Of a stretch of 35,669 nucleotides of DNA, positions 20,297 to 30,038 are shown piece by piece; positions within the stretch are counted from its first letter, which is position 1; every line of letters begins with the position of its first letter. A program made the translations under genes and the position numbers. The stretch spans positions 1 through 35,669 of the forward strand of contig JAHCLD010000003.1 of the NCBI GenBank assembly GCA_026125585.1. The letters run 5' to 3'. Under the pieces are notes generated by a model. The model saw only the letters and a program-made list of their open reading frames with translations. It did no database searches and was not told the DNA's origin. This stretch comes from Burkholderiales bacterium (GTDB lineage Bacteria > Pseudomonadota > Gammaproteobacteria > Burkholderiales > SG8-41).

Positions 20297-20319
20297 ACAG
20301 CGGAAACAGGCGGCCGAAT

Positions 20320-21534
20320 TCAGCCTTCGTCCCCGCGGCCCGGCTCGGTTCTCCGTTCGTCGGGCAGCAGCAGCACGATCGTGGCTTTGATCGTGGCGAC
20401 ACCGGCGAGTATCCACAGCGAGGCGGCAAATCCGATGTTCTTCACCATCGGACCGAGCAGCCAGACAGCGAGTGCGCTGATACCAAACGCGACCGTCAGC
20501 CGCAGGCCGGCGACTCGCGAGCGCAACCGGTCGTCGACGTAGCGCACGACCATCGCCTCAGTAAACGGAATAGAACCGAAGACAAACACCATCACCGCAA
20601 GCAGCGCGATGAACAGCCACCAGTCTTGCGTGTGCGCTGCGAAGATCAGCGGTGGAATCTGAATTACCGACATCCAGAACTGCAGCGGCTTGAACGGCAT
20701 GACATCTATCATGCGCCCGATGACGATCTGCGCAAGCGACGCAACGACGTAGATCACCGAGAGCAGCGCACCCAGCACAGCCGGGTCTTCGATCACGCCG
20801 AGGAAAGCCTCGGACAGCAGCTGCGCATTACCGTTGGTGGTGAAGTTGAAGAGCAGGCTGCCCGCGACCGCCACCACCGTCATCACCGCGAATACACGTG
20901 CGAGCATCGCAGGCGACAACTTCACCTGGGCCTTGCCGCCCTTGCCTTTGGATGGTGCCTCGACTTCCTTCGGGCACAGAAGTGCGAACGCGATACCGCA
21001 CGCGATCGAAATCGAGCCTGGAATCACGAATGCAGCACGCCAACCCAGCCATTTGACGAGGAAGCCAGTGAGCAGCGCGGCGACGGCGATGCCGAGGTTG
21101 CCTGCGAGCCCGTTGAAACCGATCACGGCACCCGGATTGGGTACGTTCTGCACCAGCATCGGGATACCGACCGGATGATAGATCGCGGCAAACGCGCCGA
21201 GCAGCATCAGTGCCGCCGCGAGCTGCCAGGCATTCTGTGTAAACGCCACCAGGATCGCGGCCGCGCCCATGCCGATGAAAAAAATGATCATCATGATGCG
21301 GCGGCCCCACAGATCGCCCAAATGTCCGGCGGGCAATGCGCCGAGGCCGAACAGTACGAACGCGCCCACACCGTACGGCATCAGGTCTGTCCAGTTCGAA
21401 TAGCCGAATTCGACGGCGATCGAAGCGACGGCGGTTGCAAAAATCAACAGAAACATGTGGTCGATGCCGTGGGCAACGTTCAGCAGAAACCTAATGACAC
21501 CATGATTCGCGGCACTGCCTCTGACATTTTCCAT
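20320..21534 (-). CDS. Major facilitator superfamily transporter
   Basis: 404 aa inner-membrane protein with about 12 hydrophobic segments in two halves split by a charged linker near residues 190-215 (KEVEAPSKGKGGKAQVK). The cytoplasmic loop 2-3 carries the MFS signature GHLGDLWGRRIMMI. The start at 21534 is preferred because AAGGAGG lies just upstream; two earlier in-frame starts (21555, 21576) lack this. As last gene of the tctC-led cluster it is a candidate importer or exporter of the compound handled there. No substrate can be read from sequence. Its GC content is closer to the flanks than that of its neighbours. It ends 23 bp from the end of xthA, tail to tail. Confidence 0.88.
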   Translation of the reverse strand: MENVRGSAANHGVIRFLLNVAHGIDHMFLLIFATAVASIAVEFGYSNWTDLMPYGVGAFVLFGLGALPAGHLGDLWGRRIMMIIFFIGMGAAAILVAFTQNAWQLAAALMLLGAFAAIYHPVGIPMLVQNVPNPGAVIGFNGLAGNLGIAVAALLTGFLVKWLGWRAAFVIPGSISIACGIAFALLCPKEVEAPSKGKGGKAQVKLSPAMLARVFAVMTVVAVAGSLLFNFTTNGNAQLLSEAFLGVIEDPAVLGALLSVIYVVASLAQIVIGRMIDVMPFKPLQFWMSVIQIPPLIFAAHTQDWWLFIALLAVMVFVFGSIPFTEAMVVRYVDDRLRSRVAGLRLTVAFGISALAVWLLGPMVKNIGFAASLWILAGVATIKATIVLLLPDERRTEPGRGDEG

Positions 21535-21576
21535 CCTGCCTCCTTGTGCGCCCATCCGCACTATTTTCCAAATCAA

Positions 21577-22107
21577 CTAGTTTATTGCCCTTTCACGCTC
21601 CAACCATTCTTTCTCGGATTTTGACAAAGGAGCGTTCAACTTCACATGTCGCCGTATTGACCCAAAGCAGGGTTCCAGTTTTCGCAACTCATTGACCGTA
21701 ACACGGGCAAGCAACTGCGGATACAAACCCTTCGGATTTTTCTTCGAACCCTGCTCGGCCAAGCGCAGACTCAACTCACGCATTAAAGGTGTTATCGAAA
21801 CGGATCCTTTCATGCACTGAAAAATCGGCCCGGAAAATGATCGCACACGCAAATAGCATACTTTTGCACCTTTGCGCGCATAAAAACAGAATTTCCTATT
21901 CGCGCCGATCCATAAACCTCTTGCAGGGCTTACCGCGAAAAGCAATCCTCTCGTTGCGATCGCGACCACACCAGCATCAACAATGATCAATTGATTCCAA
22001 GGACAGCCATGCGGAGTCGAAGGGTTATCGTATCGCCTACTTTCAATCCGTCGCACTACAGAGTCGACGTCAATCGTGCCCTTATCTTTGACCTGTCGCC
22101 TTGCCAT
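21577..22107 (-). CDS. Stand-alone AraC-type sensor (cupin) domain without a DNA-binding domain
   Basis: 176 aa. Residues from about 24 to 128 align by eye with the N-terminal cupin-like domain of the AraC regulator at 25885: a shared RRY, then NQLIIVDAGVV against AQLVFAEEGVM, ARGLWIGANRKF against QRAVWVPPETPH, and TPLMRELSLRLAEQ against SELLRALILQFSRI. The full regulator then has two helix-turn-helix motifs; this protein ends after a short basic/acidic tail (SKSEKEWLERERAIN) with no such motifs. The His-x-His at the ligand end of the cupin is not conserved. It is AT-richer than the flanks. It could be a truncated relic or a ligand-sensing partner; the intact frame and in-operon position leave both open. 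Confidence 0.6.
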   Translation of the reverse strand: MARRQVKDKGTIDVDSVVRRIESRRYDNPSTPHGCPWNQLIIVDAGVVAIATRGLLFAVSPARGLWIGANRKFCFYARKGAKVCYLRVRSFSGPIFQCMKGSVSITPLMRELSLRLAEQGSKKNPKGLYPQLLARVTVNELRKLEPCFGSIRRHVKLNAPLSKSEKEWLERERAIN

Positions 22108-22153
22108 TAAGCCGCCCCTACCGAGATGTATTTACGCAACACACAGTAGCCGA

Positions 22154-23398
22154 CTACATCCGAGAAATCATTTCTCTCCCGAAACCGGAGCACGATATTT
22201 GGCGAGATCCCTCAATGGACGACGCCAGATCGACGGTCACGACCCTGTCCCGGATCGTTTTCTCCAGTGAGTCACTTATAACTATCGCCGCTTCATTCCA
22301 TCCCAGGTGACGCAGCATCATCTCGGCGGAAAGAATCTCGGATGATGGATTTGCACAATCCAGTCCGGCGATACTTGGAGCTGTGCCATGAGTGGCCTCA
22401 AAGACCGCAATTGAATCGCTTAGGTTAGCCCCTGGCGCTATTCCTATGCCACCCACTTGGGCAGCCAAAGCATCCGAAAGATAATCGCCATTCAAATTCA
22501 GGGTAGCCACGATGTCATGCTCCTCCGGTCTCAGGAGGATTTCCTGCATGAACGCATCGCAGATGACATCCTTGATCACAATGTCGCCATGTTCGGCGGG
22601 AATGCTTAACCATGGACTACTTCCGAGGAGCCGGGCACCAAACTCCTCTTTTGCCAGCTCATATCCCCAGTTCTTGAACCACCCTTCCGTGAATTTCTGA
22701 ATATTTCCCTTATGAACCAAAGTCACCGAACGACGACGATTGTCGATCGCGTACCTGATCGCTCTCCTTATCAACCTTTGACTGCCCTCTTTGGAGACAG
22801 GCTTAATGCCGATGGACGCGGATTCAGGAAACTTTATTGAGGTCACCTTCATTTCAGAGATCAGGAAGTTCAATATTTTCGAGGCCTCCTTTGTCCCCGT
22901 TCCCCACTCGATGCCGGCATAAATGTCTTCCGTGTTCTCCCGGAAGATGACCATGTCAGTTTTCTCCGGATATTTCAGAGGACTTGGAACACCCTTGAAA
23001 TAGCGTATGGGCCTCAAGCAGACATACAGGTCAAGAACCTGGCGCAGCGCGACATTCAGGGAGCGCGTGCCACCCCCGACCGGAGTGGCCAGCGGACCCT
23101 TTATCAGAACACCAAACTCCCTCGCCGCATCCAGCGTTTCTTCGGGCAGGGCATTACCGTCACCATAGAGTTGCGCGGCCTTCTTTCCGGCATATATTTC
23201 GGTCCACGCGATCTTCCGGCGCCTTCCATATGCCTTTTGGACCGCCGCATCAACCACCTGCATCATCACCGGCGTTATGTCGGCGCCTATCCCATCGCCT
23301 TCAATGTATGGCAACACAGGATTGTCGGGAACGCGCAACGTCATGTCCTTGGCGACAGACACTGCTTCGCCGGCTCCGACCTTGATGTGTTTGTACAT
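22154..23398 (-). CDS. icd: Isocitrate dehydrogenase, predicted NAD-preferring
   Basis: 414 aa beta-decarboxylating dehydrogenase closely resembling E. coli Icd and sharing its residue numbering through the active site: S113, N115, R119, R129, R153, Y160 and K230 are all present, so isocitrate is the expected substrate and 2-oxoglutarate the product. The cofactor site differs. With a 2-residue offset, E. coli K344, Y345, V351, Y391 and R395 are here S342, I343, A349, V389 and S393, so the residues that hold the NADP 2'-phosphate are gone. It starts 10 bp after the lyase stop and has no strong ribosome site, suggesting coupling. Probably a second, accessory copy beside the housekeeping enzyme, which is inference since the rest of the genome is not seen. 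Confidence 0.9.
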
Positions 23399-23408
23399 GG
23401 CGAAAGTC

Positions 23409-24776
23409 TTATACCTTCAGCCAGCCGCTTTTATCGACGTCCTTCAGAACCCTTTCGACGATTTCCGGGGCGAAACCAATGTATGTGGTTGGGTCGAGCA
23501 GCTCTTTAAGTTCGCCCGGAGACAGCGCCGATCCGATCTGTTTGTTCTTGCTGAGCGATTCTTCGAGACTCAGCCCCTTTTCAATTCCATGAATCGCAAC
23601 TTCGTGCATGACATCGTGCGCAGTTTGCTTGCCAACCTTGTCGGACAACGCGAACATGATTCGCTCTGTGAGAAGGTAGCCGCCCATGGTGTTCAAATTC
23701 CTGCGCATGCTCGAAGTGTTGACGACGAGACCCGCCAGCACGTAATGCATTCGGGAAAGCATCACCCCCAGCATGAGACAAGACTCGGGCACAGCGCGCC
23801 ACTCACTGAACCATCCAGAACCATCCCGTTCATGCAACGTGACCATTGACTCCATCATCAAGGACGCGTTGTAGCGAAGTGATCGCCCTACGGCGCATAT
23901 CTCCATCACGACAAACGGGTTGCGTTTGTGCGGCATCGTGGATGACCCCACATTGGCCTGCTCGGCCGGTTCAGAGATCTCATCAATTTCGTTATGGGTA
24001 AGAATATAGATTTCATTCGCGATCTTTGCGATTGTTCCGCCGATCAGGCCTAGAAGGTTCACATACTCCGCAAATCGGTCTCGTGCCGGTTGCCAGGAAA
24101 TGTCCGCCACCGCCAAGCCAAGTCTTTTCATCACACGGGCATCGACTTCGAAAGGCTCTTGGGCAAATGACGCCTTAGTCCCCACCCCACCTACCATCAG
24201 CCCCACAAATACGCGTTCCTCAAGCTGCCGCAGCCTCTCATAGTGACGAGTTACTTCGGATAACCAGATTGCAGTCTTATGACCGAAGGTGATCGGTAGC
24301 GCCTGCGTGCCCAATGAGCGACCGACCATTGGGGTGCTCATGTGCTCCTTCGACAGGCGGTACAACTCCTTGCCGATCAGCTTCACGTCCCTCAGAAAGA
24401 TCGCATGTGCTTCCTTGACCTGAAGCATCAGCGCCGTATCTGTAATGTCCTGCGTCGTGGGCCCGAAGTGAATAAACTCGCCGGCTTCTTTCTTACATGC
24501 TTTTTGAAGCGCCTTGAGGGCAGGAACCAGCGGGTGCCGGACACTCTTCATTCCGGCCCCGATTTCTTCCATATCGACGTTGGCAACCTTTGCCTTGGCC
24601 GCAATCTCATCCGCTGCGCTCTTGGGGATAATTCCCAGTGCCGCCTGCTCTATTGCCAGCGCAGCCTCTATGTCAAACCACTTTTGCACTTTGTTCGAAT
24701 CGGAGAAGATGGCGCGCAACTCATCCGTTCCCCACATATGCTTTATTAGCCGATCGTCAAATATTCCGGTCGCCAT
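23409..24776 (-). CDS. Fumarase/aspartase superfamily lyase, ADSL/carboxymuconate cycloisomerase type
   Basis: 455 aa. The superfamily signature [11 protein letters not shown] holds the catalytic-loop serine. The N-terminus ([19 protein letters not shown]) and the C-terminal domain ([23 protein letters not shown]) are of the adenylosuccinate lyase / 3-carboxy-cis,cis-muconate cycloisomerase group. [13 protein letters not shown] is the conserved second region. Members eliminate fumarate-like products from succinyl-substituted amines or rearrange tricarboxylates. Position in a catabolic cluster, not a purine cluster, argues against a housekeeping purB. The start has GGAG 5 bases upstream. The substrate is unknown: iminodisuccinate-type lyases belong to this superfamily, so an aminopolycarboxylate is one possibility. 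Confidence 0.85.
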
Positions 24777-24831
24777 TTCTGCTCCAAATAAGTGTTGATT
24801 TGAAATTAACCATCTAACGGGCGATTGAAAC

Positions 24832-25809
24832 CTAATTCGCCCTCACATTGCCGCGCTTGATCACATCTGAATACTTGATCACCTCATTCTTGAAATACGA
24901 CCCAAGTACGGCCGGAGAGCTGCCAACGGGATCGATTCCATCTTTCGCCATGAAGCTCAACACCTCAGGCGCTTTAGTTGCTTGAGAAAACTCTTCGCTG
25001 AGTTTCGTTACGATCTCTTTTGGCGCATTCACCTGCGCAAACACCGCATACCAGTTGTTTGATTCAAACCCCGGCAAGACCGATCCAACAGTTGGCAAAT
25101 CGGGAAATGCCGGAGATTTGTTGGCCGTCGTAATCGCAATCCCCTTTAATCTACGGGTCGACAAATGCGGCTTTGCGGACGGAGCTGTAGCGAAGAGAAT
25201 GTCTACTTCGCCAGAAACCGCACCTGTGATCGCAGGGCCTCCTCCCTTGTAGGGCACATGCGCAATCTCAATCCCGGTCATCTGTCGCAGCATTTCAATG
25301 GATAGATGGCTTGTCGTTCCCGCGCCGTTCGATCCCGCATTCATGCCGCCAGCACGATTCTTCGCCAGTGCAATAAGTTCTTTTAACGAATTTGCGGGAA
25401 CACTTGGATGCGCCACCAACACAAGCGGCCCCGATGCCAGCCAGCTGACAGGAGCCAAGCTCTTGATAGGATCGAACCGGACATTGGCAAGAAGGCTTGT
25501 GTTCACTGCAAGCGAAGCTGTAGCGAGCAGGATGGTGTAGCCGTCCGGGGCGCTACCGGCAACGATCTGCGCCCCCAAGAGCCCACCCGCCCCCGCACGG
25601 TTGTCCACAACCAACATCTGATTCAGCTTCGCCTGCATGGGTTTTGCCAGAAGTCTTGCCAGCACATCAGCACCTCCTCCGGGCGCAAATGGAACAACCA
25701 CCCGGATCGGCTTGGTGGGGTACTGCTGAGCAAGCAGCGCGTCACTTCCCACCATGCCTGTCAAAGCGAGCACTCCCGCTACAGCCGATCGGAAAGTTTT
25801 AAACTTCAT
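24832..25809 (-). CDS. Bug/TctC family periplasmic solute-binding protein
   Basis: 325 aa with a signal peptide (about residues 1-28, basic start then a hydrophobic run ending DALLA). The mature part opens with YPTKPIRVVVPFAPGGGADV, the family hallmark, followed by VDNRAGAGGLLGA and the HVPYKGGGPA loop that contacts a carboxylate ligand. Bug proteins bind small carboxylates and amino acids, and are hugely expanded in Burkholderiales. The matching membrane partners TctA and TctB are absent from the window. The start is supported by AGGAGG at 7-8 bases. It is the first gene of the minus-strand cluster and divergent from araC. Ligand unknown. Confidence 0.92.
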   Translation of the reverse strand: MKFKTFRSAVAGVLALTGMVGSDALLAQQYPTKPIRVVVPFAPGGGADVLARLLAKPMQAKLNQMLVVDNRAGAGGLLGAQIVAGSAPDGYTILLATASLAVNTSLLANVRFDPIKSLAPVSWLASGPLVLVAHPSVPANSLKELIALAKNRAGGMNAGSNGAGTTSHLSIEMLRQMTGIEIAHVPYKGGGPAITGAVSGEVDILFATAPSAKPHLSTRRLKGIAITTANKSPAFPDLPTVGSVLPGFESNNWYAVFAQVNAPKEIVTKLSEEFSQATKAPEVLSFMAKDGIDPVGSSPAVLGSYFKNEVIKYSDVIKRGNVRAN

Positions 25810-25884
25810 GTGCTATCCTCCTAATTGTCCGCATGATCTCGTTTAACATATTGTTTTATATGAATTTTTTCATGTTGATGCCTG
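25810..25884. promoter_or_regulatory. Divergent tctC / araC intergenic region with candidate operator
   Basis: 75 bp, strongly AT-rich, between two divergent starts. It contains CATAT-N6-ATATG and TGAA-N4-TTCA inverted repeats close together, plausible as regulator binding sites. No convincing -35/-10 pair could be chosen for either direction. AraC-family proteins often bind direct repeats, so the assignment to this regulator is only a guess. Confidence 0.35.
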
Positions 25885-26754
25885 ATGATCCCCTCTGTGC
25901 GAGAGCCCGTTGAAACTTCCACAATCGAGCGCCATGACACCGGGCATGACGTTCCGCGCGCGGTCATACTCCAGACGCGTCGATATGCCGCCGGAACCCA
26001 GATTCCAACGCACGTACATGCGCGAGCGCAGCTGGTGTTCGCTGAAGAAGGAGTCATGCGGGTCAGCACAGTCGACGGCAGCTGGGTAGTACCGTCGCAG
26101 CGTGCCGTATGGGTCCCGCCAGAAACCCCGCATACGATCCTGATCGGTTCTCGTCCACTCTTGATGCGAAGCTTGTACATAAAACAATCCGTCAAATCCC
26201 TGGGGCCTCGTTGCTGCACGGTTAACGTTTCCGAGTTGCTGCGCGCGTTGATTCTGCAGTTCTCGAGAATTCCGGAAGTTTTTGACGAACGAGGGCCAGA
26301 CGGCCGATTGGCGCAAGTGCTGCTGGATCAAATTTCCTCATCTCAGGTCACTCCTCTTCACCTTCCGATGGGCCGGGACGCGCGTGCTCGGAAAATCATG
26401 GATTTTCTTGCGAAGCACCCGGAAGACACGCGAACCATTGAGGAGTGGTCCAGTGAAGTTGGTGGATCGCCGAAAACACTCACGCGCCTATTTCTCAAGG
26501 AAACCAGAATGGGTTTCAGGGAATGGCGGCAGAGGGCCCGCTTACTGAGGGCGCTCGAATACCTTGCGGGAGGCAGATCGGTCCACGCCGTCGCGAATGA
26601 TGTAGGGTACGAAAGCCCCAGCGCCTTCATCACAATGTTCACCAAGACGCTAGGCATGACCCCGGCCGAGTATTTCCGGGACACAACAGAGCCCCGTCGC
26701 CGCAATATCTTGAAGTCTAGGCATTCAGGCTCCAAAGCGAAGCAAGTTCGTTAA
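25885..26754 (+). CDS. AraC family transcriptional regulator
   Basis: 289 aa. N-terminal cupin ligand domain (PTHVHARAQLVF onward, with the His-x-His retained) and C-terminal AraC DNA-binding domain from about residue 180 with two helix-turn-helix units (RTIEEWSSEVGGSPKTLTRLF, then VHAVANDVGYESPSAFITMF, ending in the family GMTPAEYFRD). It is divergent from the tctC cluster across 75 bp and overlaps the 3' end of the MmgE/PrpD gene by 38 bp, tail to tail. It is therefore likely to control both arms in response to the substrate or an intermediate. The ATG at 25885 has no good ribosome site; a start slightly downstream is possible. Confidence 0.9.
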   Translation: MIPSVREPVETSTIERHDTGHDVPRAVILQTRRYAAGTQIPTHVHARAQLVFAEEGVMRVSTVDGSWVVPSQRAVWVPPETPHTILIGSRPLLMRSLYIKQSVKSLGPRCCTVNVSELLRALILQFSRIPEVFDERGPDGRLAQVLLDQISSSQVTPLHLPMGRDARARKIMDFLAKHPEDTRTIEEWSSEVGGSPKTLTRLFLKETRMGFREWRQRARLLRALEYLAGGRSVHAVANDVGYESPSAFITMFTKTLGMTPAEYFRDTTEPRRRNILKSRHSGSKAKQVR

Positions 26755-28099
26755 CGTCCTGAATCTCATCCAAGGAACGAATTTTCGAGATCAGTGTGGT
26801 TGCCGCGTCGCCAACCAGCACGTTTGCGGTAAGGTCCCGGAATTTCTGCTCAACCCGTTGCTGCTGATGCTCGAGATCCTGATCGGGTATGGTCATGTCC
26901 GAAGCAGCTCTGTGAGTAATGCCCGTATCCAATCTCACGATCACTTCGCCATTCCCCGGCGCCAGTTCCTCCCCCACTTCAACCCTGCACTTGTCCCTGA
27001 TACGCACCAATTCGGGATCGTCGCAAAGCGCATCGCTGTAACTTTCGATACTGCTTGTGCTTCTTTTTGCAAGCGCCATGGCCGTCGTCATGCGCAGACT
27101 GAACTTGATCTCCAATCCGCTGACCGGCTTTTCAATGTTGCACATTCCCAATGCCAGCCTCGGGATTCGAATGACCACTCCTTCGATATTCTTCGCGTCG
27201 AATTGTGTGGTCTCCCGAATTTTTATCGCCGCTTCAATCGGCGCATGAGTGGCGTAGCAAGACGCGTGATACTTGAAAAGCAGGTCGCGGGCGTGAAAGC
27301 CGCCCTTGTTGATGTCCTTGAGCGCCGCTTCCTCGTTTTGGCCGTTGCTATGCGTCTTTACATACCCCTGATCGGTTTCCAGGATGCTGCCGTTCGACGT
27401 GAATCCCTTCCCGGCCAGCTGCGCTGCATAGAGTCCGTTCGAACACGCCTTCCCGACGTTGAGTGCCTTACACATCGTGCCGAACATGCTCTTCAACCCG
27501 GCCGCCTGGGTTCCGGCAATTCCAAGTGCCGTGGCACATTGCGCCGGCGTCAGATTGAGCAGGTTCGCAGCGGCCGCAGCAGCACCAAATGTGCCCATGG
27601 TGCCGCTCGCATGCCAACCCCTTTCGTAATGATCGTCCGTCATGAACAATCCCGCCCGGCAGGCAATCTCCAGTCCCGCGATGTAGGCTGTAATGACCTG
27701 CTTTCCCGTTGCTTTTCGCAGCTCGGCCAAGGCAAATACGACGGGAAGTACAGGAGCACTCGGGTGTCCAGGAACGGCAAAATGTTTATCGTCGTAATCA
27801 AGAACGTGGGAAGCGACACCGTTTATCAGCGCGCTTTGGATGGCACTCACTTTGCGTGCACGGCCAACTATCGAAGTCTGGGAAAATCCGCCTTCCTCGA
27901 GTGCCTGCTGAATGACGATCTCAGTGGTCCGATCACCAGCTCCTGCCAGTGCCGAGCCGAGCCAGTCGATGATCCCTTGCCGTGCGATCTGCCTCACGTC
28001 TTGCGGGATATCTTCGTATTTCAGCGAGGAAGCATAACCAGCCAAGGTGGCAGTCATACCTGCTGAAGTATTAGGCTCTGGTTTTACTGCCCTATCCAT
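26717..28099 (-). CDS. MmgE/PrpD family protein
   Basis: 460 aa. Signatures of the family are the IIDWLGSALAG helix near the N-terminus, NGVASHVLDYDD, GHPSAPVLP, GWHASGTMGTFGAAAAAA and the KYHASCYATH segment. Members include 2-methylcitrate dehydratase, cis-aconitate decarboxylase and iminodisuccinate epimerase, all acting on polycarboxylates by proton abstraction. The start at 28099 is preferred to 28108 because AGGGA lies 8 bases upstream, whereas it directly abuts the earlier ATG. The gene sits on the same strand as the lyase cluster but is separated from it by the araC gene. Its exact reaction cannot be assigned. With the lyase and isocitrate dehydrogenase it suggests a polycarboxylate pathway. 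Confidence 0.88.
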   Translation of the reverse strand: MDRAVKPEPNTSAGMTATLAGYASSLKYEDIPQDVRQIARQGIIDWLGSALAGAGDRTTEIVIQQALEEGGFSQTSIVGRARKVSAIQSALINGVASHVLDYDDKHFAVPGHPSAPVLPVVFALAELRKATGKQVITAYIAGLEIACRAGLFMTDDHYERGWHASGTMGTFGAAAAAANLLNLTPAQCATALGIAGTQAAGLKSMFGTMCKALNVGKACSNGLYAAQLAGKGFTSNGSILETDQGYVKTHSNGQNEEAALKDINKGGFHARDLLFKYHASCYATHAPIEAAIKIRETTQFDAKNIEGVVIRIPRLALGMCNIEKPVSGLEIKFSLRMTTAMALAKRSTSSIESYSDALCDDPELVRIRDKCRVEVGEELAPGNGEVIVRLDTGITHRAASDMTIPDQDLEHQQQRVEQKFRDLTANVLVGDAATTLISKIRSLDEIQDVNELASLWSLNA

Positions 28100-28379
28100 T
28101 CTTTTCATCCCTATTCAAGGCGATTACTTCTTGCCGAAGAGAACGGTACGGCGCGCTCTCACGGTGAACAATTCGAAATAGGGACAAAGAGTTGCTGTTT
28201 TAGGACAATCTTGGACGCCGTGCTGCCGTGCCGAAGATTTCTTGGCGAAATCCGCGATTACCTGGCTGCCAATGCTCCGGAGACCAAGGACCCACAATGG
28301 GGAAATGGGATCAGAAGCATGGCAGCCTGAAGGGGAGAGAGTCCGACAATTTAAGGATCGGGACAAAAATCAGCCGCTT
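28100..28379. other. Gene-free segment between mmgE/prpD and the xthA remnant
   Basis: About 280 bp with no convincing gene. Short open frames exist on both strands but none has a recognisable domain or a clear ribosome site. It should hold the promoter of the MmgE/PrpD gene and may contain the true right-hand junction of the island. No terminal repeats or transposase fragments were recognised. Confidence 0.4.
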
Positions 28380-28685
28380 CACAAGACCGTGAGCAACATC
28401 AGCCATGGCATTCCCGGCCTAGGCGACCCGCAGAAGGGAAGCGCGCGGAACTGGAGCAATATCAAACTTGGACTAGCAAAGCGCTGCAGCGATGCAGAAC
28501 ACATTGCCATAACCGGACTTGGCCTAAATGGCGCCTTCCGCCGCAAAATGGGCCTGCGCATCGACCACATTCTCGCCTCCGGCGCACTCGCCGGGAGTTG
28601 CCGCTCCTGCCTGATCGACATCGAACCGCGACGCAACGAACGCCCGTCCGACCACGCGCCGGTGATCGCCGAATTCGCCCGGTAA
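28380..28685 (+). pseudogene. xthA: Decayed second copy of xthA (middle and 3' portions)
   Basis: The start of this segment matches xthA residues about 80-97 ([16 protein letters not shown] against VSDVSHGIPGFNDPQK), then jumps to a degraded CSDAE segment and a short LGL block. It finally matches the whole C-terminus from [14 protein letters not shown] through [10 protein letters not shown] (39 of 46 residues identical by eye; DNA about four bases in five). The first 80 residues, with the catalytic Glu, and the GDFNIAP centre are missing. The frame is open through the remnant to a TAA at 28683, but such a protein could not be active. The level of divergence suggests a copy from a different lineage, not a recent duplication. 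Only 9 bp separate it from the end of the gor-like gene. Confidence 0.85.
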
Positions 28686-28694
28686 TGCGCGGGC

Positions 28695-30038
28695 TCAGCC
28701 GCGCAGCGTGACGAACTCCTCCGCGGTTGTCGGGTGAATGCCGATGGTGGTGTCGAACTGCGCCTTGGTCGCGCCGCAGTTCATCGCAACGGCCAGGCCC
28801 TGGATGATCTCGCCGGCCTCGGCCCCCACCATGTGCGCGCCGAGCACGCGGTCCGAGGCAGCATCCACCACCAGCTTGATGAATACCTTGCCGGCATCGC
28901 CGGACAGCGTCGCCTTCAGCGGACGGAAACTGCTGCGGTAGACCTTCACTTCGGGAAAACGCCGGCGTGCCTCATCCTCGGCCAGCCCCACGGTGCCGAC
29001 ATGGGGATGGCTGAATATCGCGGTCGGGATGTTCGCGTAATCGACCGTCGACGGCTGCCCGCCGAACAGGGTGCGCGCGAGCGCGGCACCTTCCGCGAGC
29101 GCCACCGGCGTCAGTTGCACGCGGCCGATCACGTCGCCCACGGCGTGCACCGACGGCACGGCGCTGCGGTAACGGTCATCGACCTGCACCGCGCCGTTCT
29201 TCGCCACGGCGACCCCGGCGGCTTCCAGCCCCAACCCCTTGATATTGGGCCGGCGACCGGTGGCGAACATCAGCAGGTCGCTGGCCAGTTCGCGCCCCGA
29301 AGCCAGCGTCACCCGCAACGCGCCGCCCTCGCGCGCCACGCGGGCCGGTGATTCGTCGAGCAGCAGCGTGACTCCCTGACGGCGGAGTTCGCCTGACAGA
29401 ACGTCTGCGATGTCCTCGTCGAAGCCGCGCAGCAGGCGGCTGCCGCGATGCACCAGCGTGGTTTCCACGCCGAGCCCGCTGAAAATCGAAGCAAATTCGA
29501 CGGCGATGTAGCCGCCGCCGACCAGCAGCGCGCGGCACGGCAGGGCCTCAAGGTGAAAGGCCTCGTCGGAAGTGATGCCAAGTTCCGCCCCCGGGATGTC
29601 CGGCCTGACGGCCCGACCGCCGGTCGCCACCAGCAGATGCTCCGCGCTCAGGCGGCGCCCCGCCACTTCGACGGCATGCGCGTCCCTGATCATGGCGCGC
29701 CCTTCCACAACCTGCACGCCGGCATCGCCGAGCAGTTTTGCGTAGACGCCGTTCAGCCGCGATATCTCGCGGTCCTTGGCAATGCGCAGTGCCTTCCAAT
29801 CGAAACGGGGCCCGGGCACCTGCCAGCCGTAACCCGCGGCATCTCCAAAATCGGACGCAAAACCGGCCGCGTAGGAAAACAGTTTCTTGGGAATACAGCC
29901 GGCGTTGACGCAGGTGCCGCCGAGCGCCGCCGTTTCGACCAGCGCGACCCGTGCGCCGAGGGAAGCCGCCACGCGGCTCGCGCGCACACCGCCGGAACCG
30001 CCGCCGATGGTGATCAGGTCGTAGTCGTAGCGGGGCAC
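28695..30038 (-). CDS. gor: Glutathione-disulfide reductase-type flavoprotein
   Basis: 447 aa pyridine nucleotide-disulfide oxidoreductase, expected to reduce oxidised glutathione with NADPH in the cytoplasm. FAD loop IGGGSGG at residues 11-17. Redox-active disulfide CVNAGC at C43 and C48, followed by IPKK as in glutathione reductases. NADPH domain with GGGYIAVEFAS and arginines in HRGSRLLRGFD that favour NADPH. ATGRRPN and AVGDV follow, and the C-terminal HPTTAEE (His435) is the catalytic base from the partner subunit. The GTG start at 30038 has GGAGG 4 bases upstream. It follows ntrC by 30 bp on the same strand, so it may be co-transcribed with ntrBC. A related disulfide reductase is possible but less likely. 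Confidence 0.9.
   Translation of the reverse strand: MPRYDYDLITIGGGSGGVRASRVAASLGARVALVETAALGGTCVNAGCIPKKLFSYAAGFASDFGDAAGYGWQVPGPRFDWKALRIAKDREISRLNGVYAKLLGDAGVQVVEGRAMIRDAHAVEVAGRRLSAEHLLVATGGRAVRPDIPGAELGITSDEAFHLEALPCRALLVGGGYIAVEFASIFSGLGVETTLVHRGSRLLRGFDEDIADVLSGELRRQGVTLLLDESPARVAREGGALRVTLASGRELASDLLMFATGRRPNIKGLGLEAAGVAVAKNGAVQVDDRYRSAVPSVHAVGDVIGRVQLTPVALAEGAALARTLFGGQPSTVDYANIPTAIFSHPHVGTVGLAEDEARRRFPEVKVYRSSFRPLKATLSGDAGKVFIKLVVDAASDRVLGAHMVGAEAGEIIQGLAVAMNCGATKAQFDTTIGIHPTTAEEFVTLRG

Follow-up and report, generated by a model that had tools for sequence, protein, structure and literature searches.

A truncated AraC-type regulator, probably a relic, beside an MFS transporter gene in a Burkholderiales bacterium

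Does an AraC-type sensor domain that is encoded without a DNA-binding domain inside a run of metabolic genes still work, or is it what remains of a regulator? The question is raised by a short frame in a 35,669-nt stretch of DNA from a Burkholderiales bacterium (the whole stretch is called the window here). The frame belongs to a same-strand run of five genes, tctC, lyase, icd, the short frame and MFS, which are separated by gaps of 55, 10, 46 and 42 nt. The features discussed below are as follows.

20297–28694, no strand: inserted block of about 8.4 kb, flanked by xth and gor, missing from the related sites read
20320–21534, minus strand: MFS transporter gene, preceded by an AGGAGG leader of its own; paired with a divergent full AraC gene in many relatives
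21577–22107, minus strand: short frame, AraC-type sensor domain plus linker without DNA-binding domain, 176 aa (from frame and homology)
22154–23398, minus strand: NADP-dependent isocitrate dehydrogenase (icd), island copy (NF005425, 658 bits)
23409–24776, minus strand: adenylosuccinate lyase/carboxymuconate cycloisomerase-type lyase
24832–25809, minus strand: TctC-type solute receptor (tctC); opens the run and diverges from araC
25885–26754, plus strand: full AraC-type regulator (araC), sensor plus helix-turn-helix (HTH_18 6.4e-22, AraC_binding 1.1e-5)
26717–28108, minus strand: MmgE/PrpD-type protein, tail-to-tail with araC
28382–28679, plus strand: decayed partial xth copy at the distal end of the inserted block, in two pieces of 84% and 78% DNA identity

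The first-pass annotation had described a complete frame between icd and the MFS gene whose product aligns with the sensor half of AraC and then stops, and on all three counts we agree. The frame comprises 176 codons from an ATG without an internal stop, a length expected by chance at the same base composition with a probability of about 5e-5 per frame, and a plausible ribosome site (AGGGG) lies ahead of the ATG. In a single BLASTP comparison, its product is 23% identical to the AraC protein of the window over residues 21–167 (E = 5e-4). Other full AraC proteins are matched in seven of the 73 other family genomes (E 2.7e-7 to 8.2e-6), all seven encoded in open frames of 288–387 aa, and a sensor profile built without the short protein finds it at E 9.3e-8; Pfam and NCBIfam give no match for it. 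The matches end at residue 164 in five of eight AraC loci and at residue 147 in the other three, while at one further locus (L060) the match extends to residue 176. Judged by alignment, they reach no further than roughly where the DNA-binding domain starts, and besides the real araC the best match to such a domain in the whole window has an E-value of only 0.15. With the AraC/XylS family the protein thus has in common the N-terminal sensor homologous to AraC-type cupin sensors; the C-terminal DNA-binding domain with its two helix-turn-helix motifs is missing, and truncation relative to homologues is one of the marks of a pseudogene. Its last nine residues (EWLERERAI) align deep in the DNA-binding domain of full-length AraC proteins (EWRQRARLL), a placement that may reflect an internal deletion; a 44-row alignment sets the tail at helix one of that domain and, with rows trimmed close to this position, does not discriminate between the two placements.

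Structure prediction from a two-row alignment yielded a mean pLDDT of 33.1 for the short protein, and the control failed over the sensor as well: the full AraC protein alone reached pLDDT values of 22–42 per ten-residue block across residues 1–150, and its DNA-binding domain did not fail. A Foldseek search with the model of the short protein returned no match at E ≤ 0.001.

If one-domain sensors of this kind were in use elsewhere, relatives might be found beside similar clusters, as the first-pass annotation proposed to check. None was found in the family genomes, the class sample, the plasmid regions opened or the pattern scans of genome and viral contigs. A peptide-pattern scan of genome_contigs and viral_contigs, which reaches close relatives only, gave no one-domain relative, and none of the 273 other genomes of a class sample held a match of the short protein at E ≤ 1e-6. 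The plasmid search (tblastn) gave 67 records (20 listed), none of which reached 60% identity. Six plasmid regions were opened, four of them annotated as helix-turn-helix regulators and two unannotated; each has an open frame of 265–320 aa, and there is no one-domain orthologue among them. Across the 74 family genomes, the sensor profile, from an alignment of nine rows (A3; the AraC protein of G022:C52 is present twice, as L132 and L179), has 36 matches at E ≤ 1e-5. Those other than the short frame itself lie in open frames of 243–433 aa, the 243-aa frame extending to a contig end, except for G101:C287:7042-7550, where the sensor is divided between frames of 146 and 198 aa and which represents either a frameshifted AraC gene or an assembly error. 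The sensor match in G022:C52 contains a stop within the matched stretch. On this sampling, one-domain AraC sensors do not appear to be a recurrent design in the 74 family genomes.

The relatives that were found point to the origin of the frame. All eight full AraC proteins first found (seven in relatives, the eighth on contig C35 of the genome studied here) are encoded divergently beside an MFS homologue, and these MFS homologues are 74–81% identical to the MFS protein of the window. Such a divergent AraC–MFS pair is present in 17 of 20 other genus genomes and in the genome studied here; approached from the MFS side in an order sample, a divergent AraC gene lies within the available stretch at nine of 29 other MFS loci. 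Sensor and linker of these proteins (L037–L044, with L044 on contig C35) are homologous to residues 16–164 of the short protein, and the neighbouring MFS gene is of one kind in both cases. The short frame differs from them in that it lacks the DNA-binding domain, lies on the MFS strand and has lost two conserved His residues. It is also more distant, with 26–30% identity to them, whereas eight of nine such AraC proteins are 66–88% identical to that of L044 and the ninth (L071) 45%. Stretches of the types TPL-REL and L-x-PC are shared between the short protein and the MFS-linked AraC proteins. Moreover, phmmer matches it to five of five MFS-linked AraC proteins and not to the AraC protein of the window, and it agrees with 7 of the 22 columns that characterise the MFS-linked clade alone, a share exceeded by only one of 15 outgroup rows (L071).

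In a tree of 44 sensor domains, the short protein groups within the MFS-linked clade (97/99); its end branch measures 9.56, compared with a median of 0.23 (7.53 for L079, a full AraC protein), and the tree analysis warns of its deviant amino-acid make-up. In the AU test, neither a pairing of the short protein with the AraC protein of the window (p 0.398) nor an MFS-linked clade without it (p 0.291) is rejected. The first-pass annotation had proposed the AraC protein 4 kb away as the partner of the short protein: the AU test leaves room for that relationship, while the closest relatives found are MFS-linked AraC proteins. By sequence comparison, descent from an MFS-linked AraC gene is favoured over descent from the one at 25885–26754, 3.8 kb away.

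The junction with the MFS gene is in keeping with a rearrangement. The short frame lies on the MFS strand, and the AraC genes of relatives are oriented opposite to MFS. We collected the region upstream of MFS from 31 relatives, aligned 21 of them with the window and printed 15 of these; by eye, 13 of the 15 (e.g., L037–L044) share a stretch (approximately TCGAAAGACAGACGATTGTAAC) in the MFS–AraC intergenic region, which is absent from the window. Both the orientation of the short frame and the absence of this stretch would fit a rearrangement at the junction. As for relatives with a full AraC gene at the same locus, to which the first-pass annotation had looked for a decision, a full AraC gene often does stand beside MFS, and a relative with the same island is not among the matches listed.

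The whole run lies on inserted DNA. The xth locus was obtained from 17 of 20 other genus genomes; in 16 of them, gor or ntrC directly follows xth, and in the remaining one the sequence stretch stops 254 nt past xth. Since all 16 readable sites are empty, the block 20297–28694 is an insertion. Its G+C content per kb (21001–29000) is 0.51–0.59, compared with 0.63–0.72 leftwards, and by gene it is 0.49 in the short frame, 0.53–0.57 in the five other low-GC island genes and 0.61 in MFS. Searching 100 genomes (the own genome and 99 relatives) with the DNA of 21500–28200 recovered single genes only among the matches listed, and not the whole cluster. At the far end, the decayed xth copy has the same orientation as the intact xth and sits in an open frame of 147 aa (28242–28685). 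As this decayed copy still reads open, the openness of the short frame is no proof of function.

Could the junction between the short frame and MFS be an artefact in which the assembly joined DNA of two strains? The genome is fragmented (266 contigs, 74% complete) and the arrangement was found nowhere else, both of which would suit such an error. Against it, the MFS leader, the spacing and the neighbouring genes are intact, and the island flanks follow the gene order of the genus. We therefore regard an artefact as highly improbable.

Evidence for decay comes from codon usage. Scored in its own frame with a codon model (leave-one-gene-out), the short frame lies below all 55 windows of equal length from five island genes, and its own frame is not the best-scoring of the six. 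G+C at its three codon positions is 0.50/0.46/0.50, compared with third-position values of 0.58–0.64 in the five island genes, and a weak codon signal is left (z 2.0 over shuffles, compared with 5.0–8.2 for the island genes, which are themselves included in that model). The frame has nonetheless acquired neither a stop nor a frameshift. In a simulation of neutral substitution, which did not include indels, a 176-codon frame remained open in 0.9% of runs with 41% of residues remaining and in 0.13% with 32%; for neutral drift from about 70% clade identity to below 30%, it stayed open in roughly 1% of runs. Because the frame rarely stays open in this way, the divergence of the short protein is probably largely older than the loss of constraint. 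Taken together, the evidence for and against decay suggests one of two histories: constraint acted while the regulator diverged and decay set in once the DNA-binding half was gone, or the frame encodes a small protein whose constraints have changed. The ratio dN/dS cannot be measured for the short frame, as no orthologue was found.

Foreign codon usage and a long branch would also be expected of an ordinary AraC paralogue whose source is an unsampled low-GC lineage and whose truncation is too recent for decay to have set in. Its G+C content, lower than that of the five other low-GC island genes, would agree with such a source, and L079 demonstrates that a full AraC protein can be long-branched and keep few near-universal columns. 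The other island genes nevertheless have one codon usage, into which the short frame does not fit, and it has lost His residues that every other row retains (see below), so that we consider a foreign paralogue very unlikely.

The conserved His residues of cupin-type sensors have a metal-ligand-like role. The first-pass annotation had regarded the His-x-His motif as lost, which is correct for the second His, now C35, and not for the first, which remains as H33 (His-x-Cys); the third conserved His is replaced by R71 or F73, depending on the alignment, so the full set of His-x-His plus third His is not present. At near-universal columns, defined as conserved to at least 90% inside the MFS-linked AraC clade and at least 75% outside and reclassified for each row (n = 19–21), the short protein keeps 12 of 19 and has lost seven, two His among them. 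Among the outgroup full AraC rows, 14 of 15 keep 0.80–1.00 of these columns and L079 keeps 0.60; the His at columns 67 and 105, lost from the short protein, is kept in 15 of 15 outgroup and 28 of 28 clade rows.

Near-universal columns are still better kept in the short protein than other clade-conserved columns (12/19 compared with 17/65; Fisher p 0.005), which is a mark of past or present constraint. It would suit a small protein that has taken on another function in the pathway, as a cupin-like binder or ligand buffer, and has diverged fast under selection. A precedent in kind is the ligand domain of the AraC-type regulator STM3175, which is described as conferring albicidin resistance without a DNA-binding domain (PMC10414762). 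As in a ligand-only reading of the short protein, the STM3175/YgiV ligand domain is active by itself, but it has a different, GyrI-like fold and is C-terminal in its parent, while the short protein is a cupin-type sensor. Given the lost His positions, a codon signal not comparable to that of the neighbours and the absence of any orthologue among the matches, a changed role seems rather improbable to us.

Another reading is a working tuning partner. The C-terminal sensor helices of the short protein could mediate dimerisation with a full AraC protein (that of 25885, or the MFS-linked protein encoded on a different contig), so that it would act as a dominant negative and damp the induction of its own run. 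Its open frame and its position within the run would allow this, as would the clade-consensus matches, which are found at 15 of 41 columns in the region of the two C-terminal helices and at 17 of 68 in the barrel. This difference is not significant (p 0.278), and the full AraC rows L131, L134 and L080 have similar helix-to-barrel ratios. Furthermore, 23% identity to the AraC protein 4 kb away is low for a heterodimer partner, and a stand-alone homologue was not found.

The closest model is TrlR of Agrobacterium, a truncated TraR-like anti-activator without a DNA-binding domain that is described as forming inactive heterodimers with TraR (PMC13043044). Like the short protein, it is a regulator paralogue minus its DNA-binding domain; it differs in belonging to the LuxR family and in that its heterodimers have been demonstrated, whereas the short protein is known here from its sequence. 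The ANR proteins (AraC negative regulators, e.g., Aar), which are reported to down-regulate AraC activators (PMC4038620; PMC10148876; PMC5570504), are likewise small proteins that are encoded near AraC regulators and act on them. They form a family of their own, set apart by description and by their size of 39–80 aa compared with 176 aa. For the partner and the buffer readings alike, these systems would be precedents in kind only, and we found no positive support for buffering or heterodimerisation by the short protein. An AraC cupin sensor without a DNA-binding domain in its own operon does not occur among the literature matches listed (open-licence PMC, title and abstract level). We consider a TrlR-like partner unlikely, and equally doubtful is the broader idea that a one-domain AraC sensor was captured on a catabolic island and has been kept within the run that it tunes, to poison the dimerisation of a full AraC protein or to soak up its inducer. 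If true, it would be the AraC-family counterpart of TrlR, a regulator fragment that controls its parent family.

We think it fairly likely that the short frame is the relic of an AraC gene truncated at the C-terminal end of its product, which may still be made. This reading, which the first-pass annotation had already entertained, is preferred because MFS begins where a DNA-binding domain would be expected, because the codon signal and seven of 19 near-universal positions are lost, because no stand-alone relative was found and the insertion holds another decayed gene copy, and because the gene beside MFS in relatives is often a full divergent AraC gene. An AraC-family gene would have kept its sensor and linker and lost the 3′ part with the DNA-binding domain in a rearrangement that joined MFS 42 nt downstream. 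The remnant, carried on the 8.4-kb island inserted beside xth, would probably be a passenger that is transcribed, and perhaps translated, along with the run, presumably without a function of its own, and the full AraC protein would regulate the run in its place. From its position, that protein is the probable regulator of tctC, lyase, icd, the short frame and MFS. As a relic, the short frame is ordinary. It cautions that an open frame with domain homology within a run need not mean a working gene.

A sigma-70 scan gave two sites (4.4 expected), none of them between icd and MFS. The icd gene, which lies in the TctC/lyase cluster, is about 70% identical to the icd of a family member (L182). Relatives of the lyase gene occur at 19 loci in genome_contigs, with an MmgE homologue alongside in 16; icd, tctC, MFS and AraC matches were not found in the available flanking stretches of these loci. 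The co-occurrence suggests that a common pathway may combine lyase and MmgE. The lyase homologues that lie beside an MmgE/PrpD homologue have 51–56% identity and come from Proteus, Providencia, Budvicia, Limnobaculum, Leminorella, Citrobacter and Campylobacter. The tctC–araC intergenic region (25810–25884) is AT-rich; by eye, it contains an imperfect inverted repeat, ATGAATTTTTTCAT, which may serve as an AraC or promoter site.
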